Of a stretch of 64,000 bases of DNA, positions 53,206-63,377 are shown piece after piece. A program made the translations under genes and the position numbers. The stretch covers positions 26,379 through 90,378 of the forward strand of contig JAJYXT010000086.1 in NCBI GenBank assembly GCA_021801645.1, written 5' to 3'. The notes beneath the pieces were generated by a model. It had not been told where the DNA came from. It ran no database searches and saw only the letters and a list, made by a program, of their open reading frames with translations. Each line of letters opens with the position of its first letter. The first letter of the stretch is position 1. The stretch comes from a bacterium. GTDB taxonomy: Bacteria > Chloroflexota > Dormibacteria > Aeolococcales > Bog-877.

Positions 53206-54057
53206 ATGGGCTTGTCGGTGGAGGTGGTCCGCCCTCGGCACACCGGGTTCTGCTTCGGAGTGCGGGATGCACTCGAGCTCACCCGCAGGACGGTGGAGGA
53301 GGGCGGTGAGGTGCTGGCCCTCGGTCAGGTGGTCCACAACGCCAGGGCGCTGGAGGAGCTGGAGGCGCGTGGGCTGCGCGAAGCCGATGCCCTGCCAGAG
53401 GCTGCCGGCCCGAGCGTGGTCGTCACCGCCCACGGGGCTCCTCCTGAACTCTTCGCCGAGGCCAGCCGCCGGGGTCTCAGGGTGGTGGACACCACCTGCC
53501 CCCTGGTGCGCCGGGTGCAGCGCCACGCTGAGGACCTGGGCCAGGTGGCGGGGACGGTGGTCGTGGTGGGACACTCGGAGCACAGCGAGGTGCGGGGGGT
53601 GGTGGGATGGGCCGCCTCCCAGGGGGCGGAGGTCGAGGTGGTGGCGAGTCTCGAGGAGGCGCAGCGGCTGCCCTGGAAGGCGCGCCGTGGCGTGGTCTCC
53701 CAGAGCACCTTCCCGCAGTCTCGGTTCCGGCAGATCGCGGAGGCGGTGGCCGGACGCAGCGGGGAGGTGGAGGTGCGCGACACCACCTGCCCGGTGGTGA
53801 CCCAGCGGCAGCGCGAGGCGCTCCGCTCCCTGCTCGACCAGGTGGACGTGGTGGTGGTGGTCGGGGGGCGGGGGTCGGCCAACACCAGGGCGCTGGCCGA
53901 GACCTGCGCTGCGGTCCGGCCGACCCACCTCGTGGAGAGCGCCGCCGAGATTCGTGCGGAGTGGTTCAGCCGGGGGCAGCGCGTCGGGATCACATCCGGA
54001 ACCTCCACCCCCTCGTGGGTGGTTGACGAGGTGGAGGCCGCCTGCCGTGCCCTCTGA
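53206..54057 (+). CDS. ispH: 4-hydroxy-3-methylbut-2-enyl diphosphate reductase
   Basis: HTGFCFGVRDALELT, QVVHNARALEEL, VVTAHGAPP, DTTCPLV, GHSEHSEVRG, SGTSTPSWVVDEV. Confidence 0.95.
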   Translation: MGLSVEVVRPRHTGFCFGVRDALELTRRTVEEGGEVLALGQVVHNARALEELEARGLREADALPEAAGPSVVVTAHGAPPELFAEASRRGLRVVDTTCPLVRRVQRHAEDLGQVAGTVVVVGHSEHSEVRGVVGWAASQGAEVEVVASLEEAQRLPWKARRGVVSQSTFPQSRFRQIAEAVAGRSGEVEVRDTTCPVVTQRQREALRSLLDQVDVVVVVGGRGSANTRALAETCAAVRPTHLVESAAEIRAEWFSRGQRVGITSGTSTPSWVVDEVEAACRAL

Positions 54058-55105
54058 GGAGCCAGCCACCCTGGAGGCGCGCCCGGAGGGGATGACCGAG
54101 GGGCTGGCCCGGGCGGCGCAGGAGCTCCTCGGGCGGTACCAGGAGCGGGTGACCTCCGGCCTGGAGCGGGCCTGCTCGCTCCTGCCCCCCGAGGTCGCCG
54201 GCCCCGGGCGCTACCACCTCGGCCTGGAGGAAGGCGCCCGGCCCGGCAAGGCTCTCCGACCCACCCTGACCATGCTGGTCGGCGAGGGGTTGGGGGCGGA
54301 TCAGCGAGTGGCCGCCCACCTGGCCGCCGCCGTCCAGTTGGTCCACGACTTCTCCCTCGCCCACGACGACATCGTCGACGAGGACCGTGCGCGGCGGGGG
54401 CAGCCGGCGCTCTGGGTGCGATACGGGCTGCCCACCGCCCTCAACACCGGAGACGCCCTCCTCACCCTCGCCTTCCAGCTGCTGGCCGCCCGGGAGCTGG
54501 ACCCGGTGGTGGCCCAGAGAGCGAGCGCCGAGCTGAGCCGCGCCACCATGGAGATGGTGGCCGGGCAGCAGGCCGACATCTCGGGCACCGGCGCCCCCTT
54601 CCAGGGTCTTCCTGCCTACATGAGGATGGTGGAGCTCAAGACCGGGGCGCTCATGGGGGCGGCCACCGCTCTCGGGGCGATCGCCGCCGGAGCCGGGCCG
54701 GACACGGTGTCGGCGTGCGAGGCATTCGGCCGCACGCTGGGCATCGCCTTCCAGCTCCGGGACGACGCCCTCGGCGTGTTCGGCGACGAGGTGGTGACCG
54801 GCAAGCCGGTGGGCAACGATCTGGTGCGCGGAAAGCAGGGACTCCCGCTGCTTCTGGCGCTGAGCGGCAACGGCCACCTGGGGAGCGCGGCCCGAAGCTG
54901 GCTGGAGCCCCCTGGGCTGGGTCCGGGCGAACTGCCGGCCGCGGTGGCTCTGCTGCGCGAGGGAGGGGTGGCGGACCGCTGCCAGGGCCTCACCACGACG
55001 TGGACCGAGAAGGCACTGAACGCCGCCGCCAGACTGCCCCTTCAGGAGGTGGTGGCGGGGGAGATCGAGGTGCTCTGCCGCTGGTTGGGGGAGAGAGCCT
55101 CTTGA
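54047..55105 (+). CDS. Trans-isoprenyl diphosphate synthase (FPP/GGPP synthase type)
   Basis: DFSLAHDDIVDEDRARRG and FQLRDDALGVFGDE Asp-rich motifs; GKPVGNDLVRGKQGLP. Confidence 0.93.
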   Translation: MPSEEPATLEARPEGMTEGLARAAQELLGRYQERVTSGLERACSLLPPEVAGPGRYHLGLEEGARPGKALRPTLTMLVGEGLGADQRVAAHLAAAVQLVHDFSLAHDDIVDEDRARRGQPALWVRYGLPTALNTGDALLTLAFQLLAARELDPVVAQRASAELSRATMEMVAGQQADISGTGAPFQGLPAYMRMVELKTGALMGAATALGAIAAGAGPDTVSACEAFGRTLGIAFQLRDDALGVFGDEVVTGKPVGNDLVRGKQGLPLLLALSGNGHLGSAARSWLEPPGLGPGELPAAVALLREGGVADRCQGLTTTWTEKALNAAARLPLQEVVAGEIEVLCRWLGERAS

Positions 55106-57042
55106 CCCTGGAGGTGGCCCTGCCACCGAGCCCGGACGCTGCCCGGGGGGAGGCGGGGGCCGTCCTGGAGCGGGCGGTGGAGAGCCTCCTGCGGCGCCAG
55201 CATCCGGACGGCCACTGGATGGGGGAGCTGGAGAGCAATGCCTCCATCACCGCCGAGTACGTCCTCCTGTGCCGGTTCCTGGAGATCGTCGACCCAGCGA
55301 GGGAGGCCGCGGCGGTCCGCCACCTCCTAGGGGAGCAGGGCGCGGATGGCGGCTATCCGATCGCTCCCGGGCTGGAGGGAGACGTGAGCGTCACCACCGA
55401 GGTGATGGTTGCGCTGAGGGCTGCCGGCCTGCCGCCGGGCCACCCTCAGGTGAGTGCGGCCCGGGACTTCGTGGCGGCACACGGCGGAGTGGAGGCCACC
55501 CGGATGTTCACTCGACTCTGGCTGGCGCTGGGGGGGCTCTGGCCCTGGCGGGAGTTGCCCGCGGTTCCTCCGGAATGGGTGCTGCTCCCCGGCCGCTTCC
55601 CCGGCAGCATCTATGACCTGGCCTCCTGGGCCCGGGCCACCACCGTTCCCCTGAGCATCCTCCGTACCCAGGAGACCGTCTTCCCCCTCTCCGAGCCCAA
55701 GCCCGATGAGCTGCCCCGAGGTGCCCGGGGCCCGGCGGCAGGGACCTGGGGATGGCGGGTGGCGGAGCGGCTGGCGCGCCACTACGAGCGGCTGCCATGG
55801 ACACCCACCCGCAGGCTGGCCCTGGCCCGGGCGGAGAGGTGGGTCCTGGACCACCAGGAGGCGGACGGCTCCTGGGCGGGAATCCAGCCCCCCTGGGTGT
55901 ACGGGCTCATGGCCCTCCGGGCCCGGGGGCTGGGGCTGGACCACCCCGCCATGCGCTCCGGGCTGGCGGCACTGGAGAGCTTCGGTATCGAGGATGAGAA
56001 GGGATTCAGGTTGCAGGCGTGCATCTCGCCCGTCTGGGACACCGCCCTGGCGGTCTGGGCGCTGGCCGATGCCGGCCTTCCCGCCGATCACCCGGCCATC
56101 CGCCGGGGGGTGGAGTGGCTCATGGGGCGGGAGGTGCGGCGCCCGGGCGACTGGGCGGTGAGGCGCCCCGGAGTCCCCCCGGGCGGGTGGCCGTTCGAGC
56201 TGTTCAACGACCAGTACCCGGACACCGACGACACCGCCGTGGTTCTCTGCGCCCTGACGGCGGCCGGCCACCGGCGGCACGAGCCCGGCGAGGTGGGCGC
56301 GGCCATGGAGCGGGCACTCCGCTGGCTCCTAGCCATGCAGGGCGAGGACGGCGGTTTCGGGGCCTTTGACGTGGACAACCGGCGCAGCTGGGTGGAGCAC
56401 CTGCCCACCTCGGACTTCGGAGAGGTGCTGGACCCGCCCAGCCCCGACGTCACCGCCCACGTCGTCGAGGCCCTGGTGCGCTGCGGGGGTGATGATCTGG
56501 AGCCGGCGCGGCTTCGGGCGCTCGCGTGGCTTCGCCGCTCCGAGGAGGGCTCCGGCTCCTATTACGGCCGATGGGGGGTGAACTACGTGTACGGCGCGGC
56601 CGCCGTGGCGCCGGCGCTGGGGGTGAGCGGGGACCCGGTTGATAGCGAGCGCCTTGTGCGGCTGGGCCAGTGGGTGGTCGAGCATCAGCACGCCGACGGC
56701 TCCTTCGGGGAGTCGGTGCTCTCCTACCACGAGCCGGAGCACATCGGACGCGGAGAGGCCACCCCCTCGCAGACCGCCTGGGCACTCATGGCACTCCTGG
56801 CGGCGGCCCGGGTGTCCGGAGAGCTGGACAGAGAGGGCCGGCTCTGGGCTGCGGCCGCTGCCGCCGCTCGCAGCCTCGCTATGACGCAGCTCCCGGAGGG
56901 GGGATGGGAGGACCCCTTCTTCACTGGCACCGGATTCCCCCGCGCCTTCTACCTGCGCTACCGGCTGTACGCCACCGTGTTTCCGGTGATGGCTCTCGCC
57001 CGCTTCTCGACCCCGGGCAGGGAGCTGGGATCCAGCTGGTGA
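55102..57042 (+). CDS. shc: Squalene-hopene cyclase
   Basis: QW motifs, FELFNDQYPDTDDTAVVL (DxDD catalytic), PSQTAWALMAL; TTG 55102 or GTG 55114 start. Confidence 0.95.
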   Translation: MTLEVALPPSPDAARGEAGAVLERAVESLLRRQHPDGHWMGELESNASITAEYVLLCRFLEIVDPAREAAAVRHLLGEQGADGGYPIAPGLEGDVSVTTEVMVALRAAGLPPGHPQVSAARDFVAAHGGVEATRMFTRLWLALGGLWPWRELPAVPPEWVLLPGRFPGSIYDLASWARATTVPLSILRTQETVFPLSEPKPDELPRGARGPAAGTWGWRVAERLARHYERLPWTPTRRLALARAERWVLDHQEADGSWAGIQPPWVYGLMALRARGLGLDHPAMRSGLAALESFGIEDEKGFRLQACISPVWDTALAVWALADAGLPADHPAIRRGVEWLMGREVRRPGDWAVRRPGVPPGGWPFELFNDQYPDTDDTAVVLCALTAAGHRRHEPGEVGAAMERALRWLLAMQGEDGGFGAFDVDNRRSWVEHLPTSDFGEVLDPPSPDVTAHVVEALVRCGGDDLEPARLRALAWLRRSEEGSGSYYGRWGVNYVYGAAAVAPALGVSGDPVDSERLVRLGQWVVEHQHADGSFGESVLSYHEPEHIGRGEATPSQTAWALMALLAAARVSGELDREGRLWAAAAAAARSLAMTQLPEGGWEDPFFTGTGFPRAFYLRYRLYATVFPVMALARFSTPGRELGSSW

Positions 57043-57905
57043 GCCAGGCCACGCTGCCGGAGTACTCCCGGACCCGGCTGGCGGAGGCCCGAGGGCGTGA
57101 GAACTTCCCCATCGCAGCCTGGCTGCTTCGCCCCTCGCGGCGGGAGGCCAGGGCCGCCATCTACGGCTTCTGCCGGCTGGTGGACGACATCGGGGACGAG
57201 CGGCTGGGGGACCCCGTGGGCCAGCTCGACCGCTGCCGGGAGGAGCTCGAGTCCTGCTACACCGGCGAGCCCAAGCACCCGGTCTTCGTGAGGCTGCGCC
57301 CGGTGATCAAGCGCTTCAACCTGCGCCGGGATCCGTTCGTCCGGCTGATCGCGGCCAACCAGCAGGACCAGGAGGTGCTCACCTACTCGACCTGGGAGGA
57401 GCTCGATCGATACTGCGACCTCTCCGCCAACCCTGTGGGCGAGCTGGTGCTGGCCCTGGAGGGAATCTCCGATCCCGAGCGGATCGCCCTCTCCGACTCC
57501 ATCTGCACCGGGCTGCAGCTGGTCAACATGTGGCAGGACGTGGCCGCGGACCGGGAGCGGGGGCGGCGCTACCTGCCAGGGGAGGTGCTGGCCCAGCACG
57601 GGGTGGATGAGGCGGATTGGTGGCGGGGTTACCCAACGCCGGCCATGCGGGCGGCCATGGCCCACGCTGTGGGCCGGGCGAGGAGTCTTCTGCGCCAGGG
57701 GTGGCCGCTGGCGGGCAAGACGCCGGGGCTGATGCGCCTGGAGATGGCCACCTTCATCCTCAGCGGGCTGGAGGCCTCGGACGGGGTGCTGGCGGATGGG
57801 GACCTGGTGTTCCAACGTAAGGCCCGGTTGCCGCGGGGCTCGCGCCGCCGGGCCTTCCTCGGATCCCTCGCCGCGCTGCGGGCCGGACGACCCCGAACCG
57901 AGTGA
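57039..57905 (+). CDS. hpnC: HpnC-type squalene/hydroxysqualene synthase-like
   Basis: ENFPIAAWLLRPSRREARAAIYGFCRLVDDIGDE...LCTGLQLVNMWQDVAADRERGRRYLP-like. Confidence 0.92.
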   Translation: MSQATLPEYSRTRLAEARGRENFPIAAWLLRPSRREARAAIYGFCRLVDDIGDERLGDPVGQLDRCREELESCYTGEPKHPVFVRLRPVIKRFNLRRDPFVRLIAANQQDQEVLTYSTWEELDRYCDLSANPVGELVLALEGISDPERIALSDSICTGLQLVNMWQDVAADRERGRRYLPGEVLAQHGVDEADWWRGYPTPAMRAAMAHAVGRARSLLRQGWPLAGKTPGLMRLEMATFILSGLEASDGVLADGDLVFQRKARLPRGSRRRAFLGSLAALRAGRPRTE

Positions 57906-58780
57906 GCGTCAGCTCGGGCGAGCTGGAGCTGGGGTACCGCCGCTGCGCCCGTGAGGTGAGGGCGGCAGCGGGCAACTTCTACTACGCCTTCCGGCTCCTG
58001 CCCGCCGAGAAGCGCCAGGGGCTCCATGCCCTCTATCGCTTCTGCCGGGGCGCGGACGACATCGCCGATGCCCCCGAGGACGCCGGAAGGCGGCTCCGGC
58101 GACTCGAGTCCTATCGCAGCATCCTGGACCGCAGCCTGGCAGGGGACCCGCCGGACGCGGGATGGCTCATCCTGATGGACACGGCCCAGCGGTTCTCGCT
58201 CTCGCCCCGACACCTCCATCAGGTGATCGACGGCTGCGCCGCTGACTGCCGGCCCATGAGGATCCGTTCCGAGCAGGAGCTGGCCGACTACTGCTATGGG
58301 GTCGCCGGGGTGGTCGGGTTGCTCAGCGCCCGTATCTTTCGCTACCAGGATCCCCAGGTGGAGGGGCTGGCCGTGGCGCTGGGAGAGGCGATGCAGCGCA
58401 CCAACATCCTCCGCGACCTCGGTGAGGACCTGGCCGCCGGACGCCGCTACCTGCCCGACGAGGTGATGGACCGCTTTCAGCTCTCCGAGGAGGATCTCCT
58501 GGTGGGGGGAAGGGGGCCCAACGCCCACCGATACCACGAGCTCATGGCCCATGAGGTGGAACTGGCCCGAGATCGCTTCCGGACCGGCCTCCAGCTGGTG
58601 CCGCTGGTGGAGCGGGACGCCCGCGGCTGCCCGGCGGCGCTGGCCGCCCTGTACCAGGCTCTGCTGGACCGGATCGAGCGAGGTGGATACGACGTGCAGG
58701 GCCAGCGGGTCCGGCTCAGCTCCGGCCACAAGGTCGGGCTGGCGCTCCTCGCCTGGGCAACCGCCACCCTTAGGCCCTGA
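57902..58780 (+). CDS. hpnD: HpnD-type presqualene diphosphate synthase
   Basis: AAAGNFYYAFRLLPAEKRQGLHALYRFCRGADDIADAP; GEAMQRTNILRDLGEDLAAGRRYLP; GTGA overlap. Confidence 0.93.
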   Translation: MSVSSGELELGYRRCAREVRAAAGNFYYAFRLLPAEKRQGLHALYRFCRGADDIADAPEDAGRRLRRLESYRSILDRSLAGDPPDAGWLILMDTAQRFSLSPRHLHQVIDGCAADCRPMRIRSEQELADYCYGVAGVVGLLSARIFRYQDPQVEGLAVALGEAMQRTNILRDLGEDLAAGRRYLPDEVMDRFQLSEEDLLVGGRGPNAHRYHELMAHEVELARDRFRTGLQLVPLVERDARGCPAALAALYQALLDRIERGGYDVQGQRVRLSSGHKVGLALLAWATATLRP

Positions 58781-58787
58781 GTCACCG

Positions 58788-60104
58788 ATGCGGGCGGTGG
58801 TGGTGGGAGGTGGCCTGGCCGGGATAACTGCGGCGCTGGATCTGGCGGCCGCCGGAGTCCAGGTGGCCCTCCTGGAACGCTCCGGCCAGCTCGGTGGGCT
58901 CTGCCGCTCGGTGGCGGACCCGGTGGCCGGCCGGGTGGACACCGGGCAGCACGTGTATCTCGGATGCTGCACCGAGCTGGAGGCGCTGCTGGGCCGCCTC
59001 GGAGTGGAGCCGGCGCTCCGCCAGGACCGCCTGGAACTCACGGTCGTGGACCCCGGGCACCCCCGCCCACGCCGGCTCTCCGCCGCGCCGCTGCCCGCCC
59101 CGTTCCACCTCCTGCCGGTGCTCGGAGCCTGGCCCAGGCTGCCCAGGGGCTCGCTGCTCCATGTCGCCCGGGTGGCCACCGCGCTGAGGCAGGGGTCAAG
59201 CGGCCTCGACGACCTGCCCGCGCTGGGCTGGCTGAGAGCCATGGGGCAGCCGGAACAGCTCATCTCCCAGCTCTGGGAGCCCTTCCTGGTGGCCGCCTGC
59301 AACGCCCCGCTGGACCGCTGCAGCGCCGAACTGGCCGCCTTCGTGGTCCGGGAGGGGCTTCTCAGCTCATCCGGCGCCGGGGCTCTTCGCGTCCCAGGGA
59401 CCAACCTCACCCAGTGGCTGGACCCTCCGGCGCGCAGTGCCCTGCAGGCGGCCGGGGTGGAGCTCCGCCTCGACTCCCGCGTCCACTCGGTCAGCGGCGG
59501 ACCGGACTCACAGCTCCGTGTGACCCACGGCTCCGGCGATGAGGAGGCCTTCGATGCGGTGGTCCTGGCGGTGCCCGCCAGGTCGGCCCACCGCCTGCTC
59601 CTGGCCGGGGGACGGTCCACCCCGGCGCTGGAGGCGGCCGCCGGCATCCCCGATTCCCCGATCGTGAACGTGCATCTCTTCACCGACCGCCCCTTCCTGC
59701 CCGGCGCCGTGACCCTCATCCCCACGAGCCAGCTCCAGTGGGCCTTCGACCGCTCCCGGCTGGACGACCGGCTGCTGGACGGGAGCTGGCACGCGGCCAT
59801 ATCGATCTCCGCGGCCGAAGCAGAGGTGGGGATTCCCGAGAGCCGCCTCTCCGCCGACATCTGGCAGCTGTGTCAGGCGACGTTCCCACCCGCGGCCCGG
59901 GCCCGGCTGGTGCACAGCCGCGTGACGCGGGAGGCCCACGCCACCTTCTGGCCCGAACCCGGCACGGCGGCCCGGCGGCCCGGCCCCGGAGATGCCATCC
60001 CCGGCGTGGCCCTGGCTGGGAGCTGGACCAGTACCGGGTGGCCGGCGACCATGGAGAGTGCGGTGCGCAGTGGGAGTGCCGCGGCCCGGCATCTTCTCGC
60101 CTGA
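58788..60104 (+). CDS. hpnE: HpnE hydroxysqualene/squalene-associated FAD-dependent desaturase
   Basis: VVVGGGLAGITAALDLAAAGVQVALLERSGQLGGLCRS; VDTGQHVYLGCCTEL. Confidence 0.93.
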   Translation: MRAVVVGGGLAGITAALDLAAAGVQVALLERSGQLGGLCRSVADPVAGRVDTGQHVYLGCCTELEALLGRLGVEPALRQDRLELTVVDPGHPRPRRLSAAPLPAPFHLLPVLGAWPRLPRGSLLHVARVATALRQGSSGLDDLPALGWLRAMGQPEQLISQLWEPFLVAACNAPLDRCSAELAAFVVREGLLSSSGAGALRVPGTNLTQWLDPPARSALQAAGVELRLDSRVHSVSGGPDSQLRVTHGSGDEEAFDAVVLAVPARSAHRLLLAGGRSTPALEAAAGIPDSPIVNVHLFTDRPFLPGAVTLIPTSQLQWAFDRSRLDDRLLDGSWHAAISISAAEAEVGIPESRLSADIWQLCQATFPPAARARLVHSRVTREAHATFWPEPGTAARRPGPGDAIPGVALAGSWTSTGWPATMESAVRSGSAAARHLLA

Positions 60105-60203: not shown

Positions 60204-61697
60204 TCAGCGGCGCGGACCGGCCACCGGCTGGGCGGCGCCGACCAGGTCGTCGGCCGTCCCGACCAAGCGGGGGACCACCTGGGCCACCGCGCGTCCCAGC
60301 TGGACCAGTGCCCGGCGCTGACTGCCGCCAAGACGGATCAGAGCCGGCAGTGATCCCGGCCGGCTGGCCACGAGCGACACCACGCGCAGCGGAGAGGCAC
60401 CACGGCTGCCCTCGGCCACCAGGGCGGCGAGCGGTCCCAGGGGTTCCGCGGGCCGGTCCAGAACGACGCGGAGGCCCCCCACGGCCAGCCCGCGCCTCAA
60501 GACCCAGCCGGCCGTCTCCATCTCAACGACGTCGGCGCCGAGGGTGCGCAGCCGCCGGCGCTCGTTTGGGTCGTCCGCCACCTTATCCACCGAGGCCAGG
60601 GTCGCCGGACGGGCGGCGGGGAGGTCGCCCAGCTGCGCGGTGATGCCGGGATCGAGTCCGTTAGCCTCACGACCACCGGCCACCAATCGGCGCGCCACGG
60701 CGACCGTCCCGGTCTCCCACGAGTCGTCCAGAGCGCCCGCCACCCCCGCCACCAGGACCCGGGCATCCGGTGGGGCCATGGCGGAGGCCGCCCGAGCCCT
60801 GGCCTGGCCGGTCCCGGTAGCCCACACCTCCACGTCGCCGCCCCGGCGCCTCCAGCGCACCAGGCCGTGGGTCGCATCGCGCTCCCACGCTCCGCCCAGC
60901 GCACGCCGACAGGTGGCCGCCTCGGAGTCCAGTGCACAGGCGACTAGGAGATCAGGAGCCCGCGGCGCCGGCCAAGCGCCGCCGCGGGCCACAAGGCCGG
61001 TGATAACGAGGACGAGCGCCGCCGCCAGCGCGCTCGGGCCCACCCCGAGCAGCACCGCCAGCACCGTGCTCTGCAGCATCACCCCCAGCAGCAGGAGGCC
61101 GCTCAAGGTGAGCGGGAGCCGCGGCGACCCCGGGTAGTCCCCGAGGCACAGGCGGATCCAGAGGGCGACGGCCAGTCCGACGGCCAGCCAGCCTACGTAG
61201 TTGAGGAGGCTGACCCCGTACCAGACCCCGCTCCCCCTTGGGTAGCTGTAGATCGAGCCCAGCCACCAGCGGCCGCCGCGGAGGGCCACCGGGTCCACCA
61301 CCAGGTCGATGGCGACCATGGCGAGGCCCGTGAGCCCTACCCGGACCGCCCCTCGGGAGCCCACCCACCCGAGGACGGTGAAGGCGGCGACCGCCAGCCA
61401 GGTGAAGCTCAGGCTGTCGAAGAGCGGGACCCCCAGGACCCGCAGGTCGAAGCGGAGCCCTGACGGCCGATAGTGGTAGACCCCAAAGGGAATCCCCGGC
61501 CCGGTGGTGGAGCCCCACTCCGCCAGCCAGGCGATCAGGTACCCCCCCGCCAGAAGTGGCAGCGCCCGGCGCCAGCCGAAGGTGCGGATCAGGACCGCCG
61601 CGGTCAGCAGCCAGGGCAGGATGGCGTACCACCGGCCGGCCAGGGCCGGGATCCAGGCGGGCAGCTCAGCCGTCTCCGCGGGAAGCCTGCTCGGCAA
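60204..61697 (-). CDS. Fusion: N-terminal CruF/DUF422-like carotenoid-biosynthesis membrane domain + C-terminal HpnG-like nucleoside phosphorylase
   Basis: N-term LAEWGSTTGPGIPFGVYHYRPSGL...DLVVDPVALRGGRWWLGSIYSYP..VWYGVSLLNYVGW; C-term LLVACALDSEAATCRRAL..VLVAGVAGALDDSWETGTVAVA..ADVVEMETAG. Confidence 0.85.
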   Translation of the reverse strand: MPSRLPAETAELPAWIPALAGRWYAILPWLLTAAVLIRTFGWRRALPLLAGGYLIAWLAEWGSTTGPGIPFGVYHYRPSGLRFDLRVLGVPLFDSLSFTWLAVAAFTVLGWVGSRGAVRVGLTGLAMVAIDLVVDPVALRGGRWWLGSIYSYPRGSGVWYGVSLLNYVGWLAVGLAVALWIRLCLGDYPGSPRLPLTLSGLLLLGVMLQSTVLAVLLGVGPSALAAALVLVITGLVARGGAWPAPRAPDLLVACALDSEAATCRRALGGAWERDATHGLVRWRRRGGDVEVWATGTGQARARAASAMAPPDARVLVAGVAGALDDSWETGTVAVARRLVAGGREANGLDPGITAQLGDLPAARPATLASVDKVADDPNERRRLRTLGADVVEMETAGWVLRRGLAVGGLRVVLDRPAEPLGPLAALVAEGSRGASPLRVVSLVASRPGSLPALIRLGGSQRRALVQLGRAVAQVVPRLVGTADDLVGAAQPVAGPRR

Positions 61698-62667
61698 CCG
61701 CCTGTTGGAGCGCCTCGTTCAGGTCGCCGGGAGTCCAGCCCAGCTCCGACCGCGCCCGCTCCGACGTCACGTACATCGGCCTGGCCGCCATCCGCACGGC
61801 CGTCATGGGGATCCCGGGCGCCCGCCGCCGGACCGCCGCCGACCCCTCGCTGACCGCGGCCGCGGCGAAGCCCACCCAGATCGGGATCCGGAACCGGGGT
61901 GCGGGGCGCCCGGCCAGCCGGGCCAGCTCGGTCAGGAGCCGGCTCATGGTCCAATTCTGGTCACCCAGGATGTAGCTCCGCCCGGGCCTGCCCCGCTCCA
62001 GCGCGAGAACGTGTCCTGTTCCCACCGCCCGGACGTCGACCAGGTTGAGGCCGGTGTCGGTGGCAGCCGGAATCCTGCCCGAGAGGAAGTCCCGGATGAT
62101 GGCCCCGGTGGGGGTCGGACGGCTGTCGCCCGCCCCCACCGGGGTGCTCGGCTGGACCACCACCACCTGCATCGATCCCGAGAACTCCTCCGCCAGCCTC
62201 TGGGCCGCCCACTTGCTGCGCTTGTAGGCGCCGGGCAGCTCCGACGCGTCTCGAGCCAGATCCAGCTCGGAACGAACCTCACCGGCGCGACTGAAGTGCA
62301 GGGTGCCAACGGTGCTGCAGTGGACGAACCGCGACACTCCGGCCCGGGAGGCTGCCTGGAGCAGGGCCGCTGTCCCCCCGACGTTGACCTCCAGCATCCG
62401 GCGGAGGTCACCAGGGCCGAGGGCCAGGCGGTAGTCCGCCGCACAGTGCACCACCCCCCAGCATCCGTCCAGTGCCGGGGTCAGGGTCGCCGGGGCAGTG
62501 AGGTCACCCTGGGCCACCTCCATCCCCACCAGTTGAGGCGGGACCCGGTCAGGCGACCGCATCAGGAGCCGCGGCCGGTAGCCGGACATCCCCAGCGCGG
62601 CCGCCACCCAGCGCCCGACGAAGCCCGAGGCTCCGGTGACCAGGACCGTCCTCCCCCCGGCGCTCAC
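61666..62667 (-). CDS. hpnA: Hopanoid-associated sugar epimerase HpnA
   Basis: VTGASGFVGR; VVVVQPSTPVGAGDSRPTPTGAIIRDFLSGRIPAATDTGLNLVDVRAVGTGHVLALERGRPGRSYILGDQN. Confidence 0.93.
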   Translation of the reverse strand: MSAGGRTVLVTGASGFVGRWVAAALGMSGYRPRLLMRSPDRVPPQLVGMEVAQGDLTAPATLTPALDGCWGVVHCAADYRLALGPGDLRRMLEVNVGGTAALLQAASRAGVSRFVHCSTVGTLHFSRAGEVRSELDLARDASELPGAYKRSKWAAQRLAEEFSGSMQVVVVQPSTPVGAGDSRPTPTGAIIRDFLSGRIPAATDTGLNLVDVRAVGTGHVLALERGRPGRSYILGDQNWTMSRLLTELARLAGRPAPRFRIPIWVGFAAAAVSEGSAAVRRRAPGIPMTAVRMAARPMYVTSERARSELGWTPGDLNEALQQAVAEQASRGDG

Positions 62668-63377
62668 CGTGCGCCCTGAGGCAACGGCTGCAGCAGGTAG
62701 CCGCCACCTCGGCTGGAGCGCAGCAGGTTCGGGTGTTGGGGATCGGCCTCAAGCTTGCGGCGGAGCCGGTGGACACACATGGTGACCGCGGCCGGGGTCG
62801 CTCGCGGGTCACCGCTCCACGCCCCCTCGATGATCTGCTGACGGGACAGCACGGTCCCGGCGTTGAGCGCCAGGTATTCCAGGAGGTCGGCTTCACGGGG
62901 GCTGAGCAGGTGCCGCCGTCCCTCGATCCGGGCACTGCGCCGGGCGGGTTCGACTATGAGTGGGCCCACCTCAACAACCCGGCCGGCGGACCGCCTCTCC
63001 ACCTGCCGGCGGCGGAGAACCGCCCGGAGGGTGGCGGTGAGCAGCGCGGGCGGGTAGGGCTTGGGCAGCACGTAGTCGGCGCCCGCCTCCATCAGCGAGG
63101 GAGCCTGGAGAGTCTCCCCCAACACCACCAGTGGGGAGGTGGACATCGCCCTGACCGCCTCGACCCCGCGCAGCCCCTGGAGGAGGCCGAGGTCGGCCAG
63201 GATGGCGGCGGGCGCCTCCTCGCGAAGGGCCAGCTCCAGCACTTCCAGCGAGGCGGCCACGCGCGAGGTGAGGCCGGGGACCTGGCCCACCAGGTGGGCA
63301 GCCACGGCCGCGTACTCCGGCTCGGCCTCCAGGATCAGGACGACCATTGGGGTTATTGTGGGTCTCCGAGAGCGCAC
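62664..63377 (-). CDS. OmpR-type response regulator
   Basis: Receiver with ILADLGL Asp and LPKPY Lys, winged-helix LLSPREADLLEYLALNAGTVLSRQQIIEGAWSG...VHRLRRKLE...RGGGYLL. Confidence 0.9.
   Translation of the reverse strand: MRSRRPTITPMVVLILEAEPEYAAVAAHLVGQVPGLTSRVAASLEVLELALREEAPAAILADLGLLQGLRGVEAVRAMSTSPLVVLGETLQAPSLMEAGADYVLPKPYPPALLTATLRAVLRRRQVERRSAGRVVEVGPLIVEPARRSARIEGRRHLLSPREADLLEYLALNAGTVLSRQQIIEGAWSGDPRATPAAVTMCVHRLRRKLEADPQHPNLLRSSRGGGYLLQPLPQGAR

Follow-up and report, generated by a model that had tools for sequence, protein, structure and literature searches.

Several steps in the tailoring of hopanoids, the cholesterol-like lipids of bacteria and major geological biomarkers, have no known enzymes. 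In the building of the side chain, HpnH adds 5'-deoxyadenosine to diploptene and HpnG then removes adenine to give ribosylhopane; HpnA is without an assigned function, and the enzyme that converts ribosylhopane to bacteriohopanetetrol is yet to be identified (PMC12583986). The hopanoid locus in the window (the whole 64,000-nucleotide stretch of bacterial DNA that was analysed) encodes an HpnG-like nucleosidase that is joined, in a single protein, to a membrane domain of the CruF family (Table 1). Hydration of a terminal isoprenoid double bond to a tertiary alcohol is the reaction of CruF enzymes. The open-access papers searched describe no protein of this architecture, and within that literature the statement of the preliminary description that none has been characterised stands.

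Table 1. Features of the hopanoid locus and of the CruF-HpnG fusion, in window coordinates.
Feature	Position	Strand	Evidence and remarks
ispH/lytB	53206..54057	+	TIGR00216, 220.7 bits, above cut-off
Polyprenyl/farnesyl diphosphate synthase-like	53954..55105	+	PF00348, E=4e-54
Squalene-hopene cyclase	55102..57042	+	TIGR01507, 635 bits, above cut-off; ORF from 54715, start inferred
hpnC, squalene synthase	57045..57905	+	TIGR03464, 251.6 bits, above cut-off; ORF from 56670, start inferred
hpnD-like, presqualene diphosphate synthase	57902..58780	+	TIGR03465, 245 bits, below curated cut-off of 278.6
hpnE, hydroxysqualene dehydroxylase	58785..60104	+	TIGR03467, 375 bits, above cut-off; start inferred from domain; convergent with fusion
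Fusion ORF, CruF-family membrane domain and HpnG-like nucleosidase	60204..61697	-	497 aa from TTG; about 486 aa from probable CTG at 61664
HpnG-like nucleosidase domain, residues 250-470	60288..60950	-	TIGR03468; Foldseek; MTAN profile alignment; invariant E259/E394/D414; predicted cytoplasmic
CruF/Caroten_synth domain, residues 23-236, seven TM helices	60990..61631	-	Pfam E=9e-18; model; residue comparison
Probable start codon CTG	61662..61664	-	one base past hpnA stop; GTG/TTG at same site in relatives
hpnA, hopanoid-associated sugar epimerase-like SDR	61666..62667	-	TIGR03466, 313 bits, E=1.5e-93, below curated cut-off of 367.65; immediately upstream of fusion
OmpR-type response regulator	62664..63377	-	first gene of the run response regulator-hpnA-fusion; syntenic in family; receiver-domain match weak (E=0.0023)

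The preliminary description placed both domains in one ORF, and all of the motifs it cited are found in the translation. A seven-helix Caroten_synth/CruF-family domain comes first and is followed by an HpnG-like nucleosidase with the MTAN fold. Both domains score above their Pfam cut-offs: PF04240 (Caroten_synth) matches residues 23-231 with 65.4 bits (gathering cut-off 25), and PF01048 (PNP_UDP_1) matches the C-terminal half with E=5e-8 and 33 bits (cut-off 25.1). A search of PHROGs gave no match. Structure prediction agrees with this arrangement. The full-length model contains a helical bundle and then an alpha/beta domain that resembles nucleosidases (pLDDT 81, pTM 0.68), and the N-terminal domain, modelled with 32 family members, gives a confident seven-helix fold (pLDDT 91.8, pTM 0.90). 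An assembly artefact or a frameshift, the danger foreseen when the fusion was first described, is ruled out by the recurrence of the same one-frame fusion in independent assemblies. All 18 genomes of the window's Dormibacterota family (f1) match the fusion, 16 of them with both domains in one open frame; in the remaining two (G010 and G014), the gene is cut by contig ends just past the membrane domain.

The TTG at 61697 is internal to hpnA and lacks conservation. One congener has an in-frame TAG between the TTG-equivalent position and the domain, which rules out upstream starts there. Most aligned genomes have a CTG (in the window's genus), a GTG, or a TTG one base past the hpnA stop codon (TGA), and the more distant L011 and L013 have a slightly different arrangement at the hpnA stop and fusion start. 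Judged from these alignments, translation of the fusion likely starts at the CTG and is likely coupled to that of hpnA.

The placement of the gene within a hopanoid locus is also borne out. The fusion lies directly after hpnA, the response regulator gene and hpnA are upstream and codirectional with it, and the genes from ispH through hpnE converge on it. In the sister family the order is FPPS-hpnC-hpnD-hpnE-SHC-hpnH-hpnA, with a standalone hpnG directly after hpnA. In f1 the fusion occupies this hpnG slot, and HpnH is encoded at a separate locus. HpnH scores above its cut-off in 16 of the 18 f1 genomes, and the other two are incomplete MAGs, one of them the window's own assembly (84.7% complete). 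CrtI exceeds its cut-off in just 3 of the 18, on contigs other than that of the fusion. These frequencies make a role in carotenoid synthesis unlikely and, together with the slot after hpnA, tie the fusion to hopanoids rather than carotenoids. The response regulator may regulate the hopanoid genes, since in L070 and L077, two genomes of the sister family, a related gene adjoins an hpnG-like gene that stands alone.

In a phylum-wide sample of 301 genomes, the complete fusion is confined to f1, and a scan of genome contigs likewise gave matches only in MAGs of this family. PF04240 itself is present in 102 of the 301, and several of the strongest matches, when inspected, lie near phytoene-synthase-like genes. 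No CruF gene was found beside hpn genes outside f1 in the 20 neighbourhoods inspected elsewhere in the phylum. PF04240 is single-copy in the f1 genomes: it belongs to the fusion or, where the gene is truncated (two genomes), sits at a contig end. Two fusion copies (L002 and L033) are present in G004, one of them 100% identical (rounded) to the window's protein, so this genome may be a mixed bin. As for carotenoid genes in the family, contig C67 of the window's genome (L084 457-3398) encodes a UbiA prenyltransferase, with a lycopene-elongase-like model over its cut-off, followed by crtI, which is cut by the contig end; in two other family genomes (L085 and L086), crtI lies beside a phytoene-synthase-like gene.

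Synteny, co-occurrence, and conserved catalytic residues together make it likely that the C-terminal domain performs the HpnG step, the removal of adenine from adenosylhopane. HpnG (TIGR03468) is the best-scoring NCBIfam model for the fusion, matching residues 287-469 with E=1.7e-15 and 57.2 bits, below the curated cut-off of 187.1; CruF models, matching the N-terminal half, rank second and also fall short of their curated levels. None of 61 related genomes passes this cut-off, including those with standalone genes beside hpnH/hpnA, and thus it seems too strict for the lineage. Residues E259, E394, and D414 do not vary among the aligned fusions; from the alignments and what is known of MTAN, we take them to be the equivalents of E. 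coli MTAN Glu12, Glu174, and Asp197. A profile built from the fusions together with HpnG sequences of the sister family hits MTANs at 8e-13 and aligns the catalytic Glu and Asp with theirs, while a PDB search with the single HpnG-domain sequence returned nothing useful. The best Foldseek matches of the alpha/beta domain in the PDB are MTA/SAH and aminodeoxyfutalosine nucleosidases. These matches, along with a weak futalosine hydrolase score, would also fit an MTA/SAH- or futalosine-type nucleosidase unrelated to hopanoids. Such an assignment is improbable, however, given the top rank of the HpnG model, the position in the sister-family hpnG slot, and the presence of HpnH in most of these genomes, in which no other HpnG candidate was recognised. 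A second nucleosidase as the real HpnG was ruled out in the one congener checked, where the best score is that of a uridine/purine phosphorylase.

The fusion thus resembles HpnG in its nucleosidase domain, its invariant Glu/Glu/Asp, its slot, and its association with HpnH. It differs in scoring below the curated level and in having a seven-TM domain in front; HpnG is standalone in the sister family and in the other matches of the phylum search. Because of the score, the protein is not classed as a verified HpnG, and an HpnG-like action is predicted as the most likely one. Loop charges (mean K+R of 2.1-3.0 on the side of the C-terminus versus 0-1.6 on the opposite side) place the HpnG domain in the cytoplasm by the positive-inside rule. 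The earlier suggestion of a membrane-tethered step gains support from this arrangement, in which a seven-helix domain is fused to a predicted cytoplasmic enzyme.

The membrane domain combines a conserved family core with altered surroundings. Residues E60, Y74, Y76, P91, D131, P136, N166, and W170 are present in all of the fusions and in 17 of 17 standalone CruF-type relatives, D135 is also retained, and 15 positions are common to all fusions and at least 15 of the 17 standalone proteins, which come from the same phylum. Another 26 positions, including D94, S95, S63, W61, R140, Y150, and Y152, are fixed in the fusions and rare elsewhere, and there is a short insert around residues 147-152. In 12 of 13 pairs, dN/dS is smaller for the CruF domain than for the HpnG domain (roughly 0.1-0.35 versus 0.2-0.46 by Nei-Gojobori, for pairs that are not phylogenetically independent), as in 0.16 versus 0.42 and 0.10 versus 0.46. 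In the tree, the membrane domains of the fusions group together in a single long-stemmed clade (support 98/97); their wider grouping with CruFs from carotenoid clusters has moderate support (84/92), and some of the neighbours are long branches. The PDB contains no solved fold relative, every match having an E above 0.4.

Known CruF carotenoid 1',2'-hydratases and bisanhydrobacterioruberin hydratases (PF04240, TIGR03460, NF041333) have in common with the fusion a Pfam score over the gathering level and the residues E60, Y74, Y76, D131, N166, and W170. Unlike them, the fusion is far below the equivalog scores (39.6 bits against a cut-off of 154.7 for TIGR03460 and 26.1 against 300 for NF041333), lies outside a carotenoid cluster, and contains the fusion-specific residues and insert. 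Since neither the equivalog score nor a carotenoid gene context is found, the protein is not classed as a CruF carotenoid hydratase; it is classed as an HpnG-like nucleosidase fused to a PF04240 domain. A divergent family member that hydrates a C30 isoprenoid end group does exist: Planococcus CruF (Orf7), with 22% identity to CruF, has been shown to hydrate C30 carotenoids. Unlike the fusion, it is a diaponeurosporene hydratase that uses a linear carotenoid and is a standalone protein in a crt cluster (PMC8502411). CruF domains are also joined to other enzyme-like domains, but in none of these cases to a nucleosidase or near hpn genes. A Deinococcus deserti plasmid protein (L081 3110-4558) contains a lycopene-cyclase-like segment (below the Pfam cut-off) and then a CruF domain, in a carotenoid gene neighbourhood. 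Two CruF-acyltransferase fusions are encoded in G121, a genome of the wider phylum (L165 7086-8807 and L166 7070-8668, both on the minus strand), and one of them adjoins phytoene-synthase-like and other crt-like genes. Thus, in at least two cases a CruF fusion lies in or near a carotenoid gene set, which favours a shared pathway for the two domains of the CruF-HpnG fusion as well.

Whether the CruF domain acts on some hopanoid-pathway substrate is about an even question, and two other roles have to be weighed against it. It could be an ordinary carotenoid hydratase whose joining to an HpnG-like domain has no functional meaning. In the tree it lies closest, at moderate support, to CruFs of carotenoid clusters, and the window's own genome contains the UbiA elongase-crtI contig, yet 15 of the 18 fusion-carrying family genomes lack a CrtI over its cut-off, the fusion resides in the hpn locus rather than on crt contigs, and its score is far from that of the CruF equivalogs; this role is quite improbable. 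A C30-carotenoid route through the CrtI-like oxidoreductase of many relatives is disfavoured too, because the copy checked matches best as CrtO-like (far below the cut-off) and is also below the crtI_fam cut-off. Alternatively, the domain might have no catalytic action on hopanoids and might anchor the protein or bind lipid, so that membrane-embedded adenosylhopane is presented to the HpnG domain in the cytoplasm. In favour of this, HpnG has a membrane lipid as its substrate, the N-terminal region folds as a bundle of seven helices, and the consecutive intermediates offer no double bond to hydrate. However, anchoring alone would not require the polar core of a hydratase family to be retained, nor slower evolution than that of the attached catalytic domain. 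The retained family residues and the stronger purifying selection indicate that the CruF domain is probably more than an anchor, and an anchoring role by itself is somewhat unlikely. With its kept core, strong constraint, and changed surround, the domain is more plausibly an active enzyme that has changed substrate than a passive anchor.

The whole best explanation, which we regard as evenly balanced between right and wrong, is that the fusion would be a membrane-bound adenosylhopane nucleosidase with a CruF-type hydratase domain recruited to hopanoids. It would sit in the inner membrane as an enzyme with two domains and take part in the C35-hopanoid side-chain pathway. The cytoplasmic MTAN-type domain would remove adenine, at the membrane, from the adenosylhopane made by the radical-SAM enzyme HpnH. 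The seven-helix CruF-family domain would go back to a single capture, probably of a carotenoid-type ancestor, and would since have adapted to a substrate of the hopanoid pathway; it retains the family core residues and has about 26 fixed positions specific to the fusion. The most likely chemistry would be hydration in the Markovnikov sense, or the reverse dehydration, of a terminal isopropenyl/isopropylidene group. The best chemical match would be the interconversion of diploptene and diplopterol at the branch point with HpnH, as hydration of diploptene's isopropenyl group should yield diplopterol; as a substrate assignment, this pair is a tentative leading guess. Squalene-hopene cyclase can itself make diplopterol, so a separate hydratase is not needed for that product. 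Adenosylhopane and ribosylhopane have no side-chain C=C, and therefore the pathway would not pass an intermediate straight from one domain to the other; the domains would act at the branch point or on different pools. In addition, with the core residues of the CruF domain positioned in the membrane or on its outer side and the HpnG domain in the cytoplasm, no direct channelling is apparent. Another possible role for the CruF domain would be hydration of a side-chain enol, a reaction that has been proposed for the bacteriohopane-pentols and -hexols, with its enzyme yet to be identified (PMC12583986). That the domain is a dedicated hopanoid hydratase or dehydratase, acting on diploptene/diplopterol or on the side-chain enol and fused to an adenosylhopane nucleosidase, is a possibility with somewhat less than an even chance. 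If true, a carotenoid-tailoring enzyme would have been recruited into hopanoid biosynthesis, with a new way to set the C30/C35 balance or to make extra-hydroxylated hopanoids. A natural fusion of HpnG and CruF domains throughout a family is a link between carotenoid and hopanoid tailoring, and a Rosetta-stone clue to an unrecognised hopanoid modification.

Other members of PF04240 were encountered in different settings. Plasmid genes of Legionella, Vibrio, and Bradyrhizobium (L101, L102, L103, and L106), which are named 'carotenoid biosynthesis protein', form a separate PF04240 clade and have no carotenoid genes annotated nearby. In the sister-family genome G019 (L061 6763-8821), a standalone CruF-family gene is followed directly by a cytochrome P450 gene.
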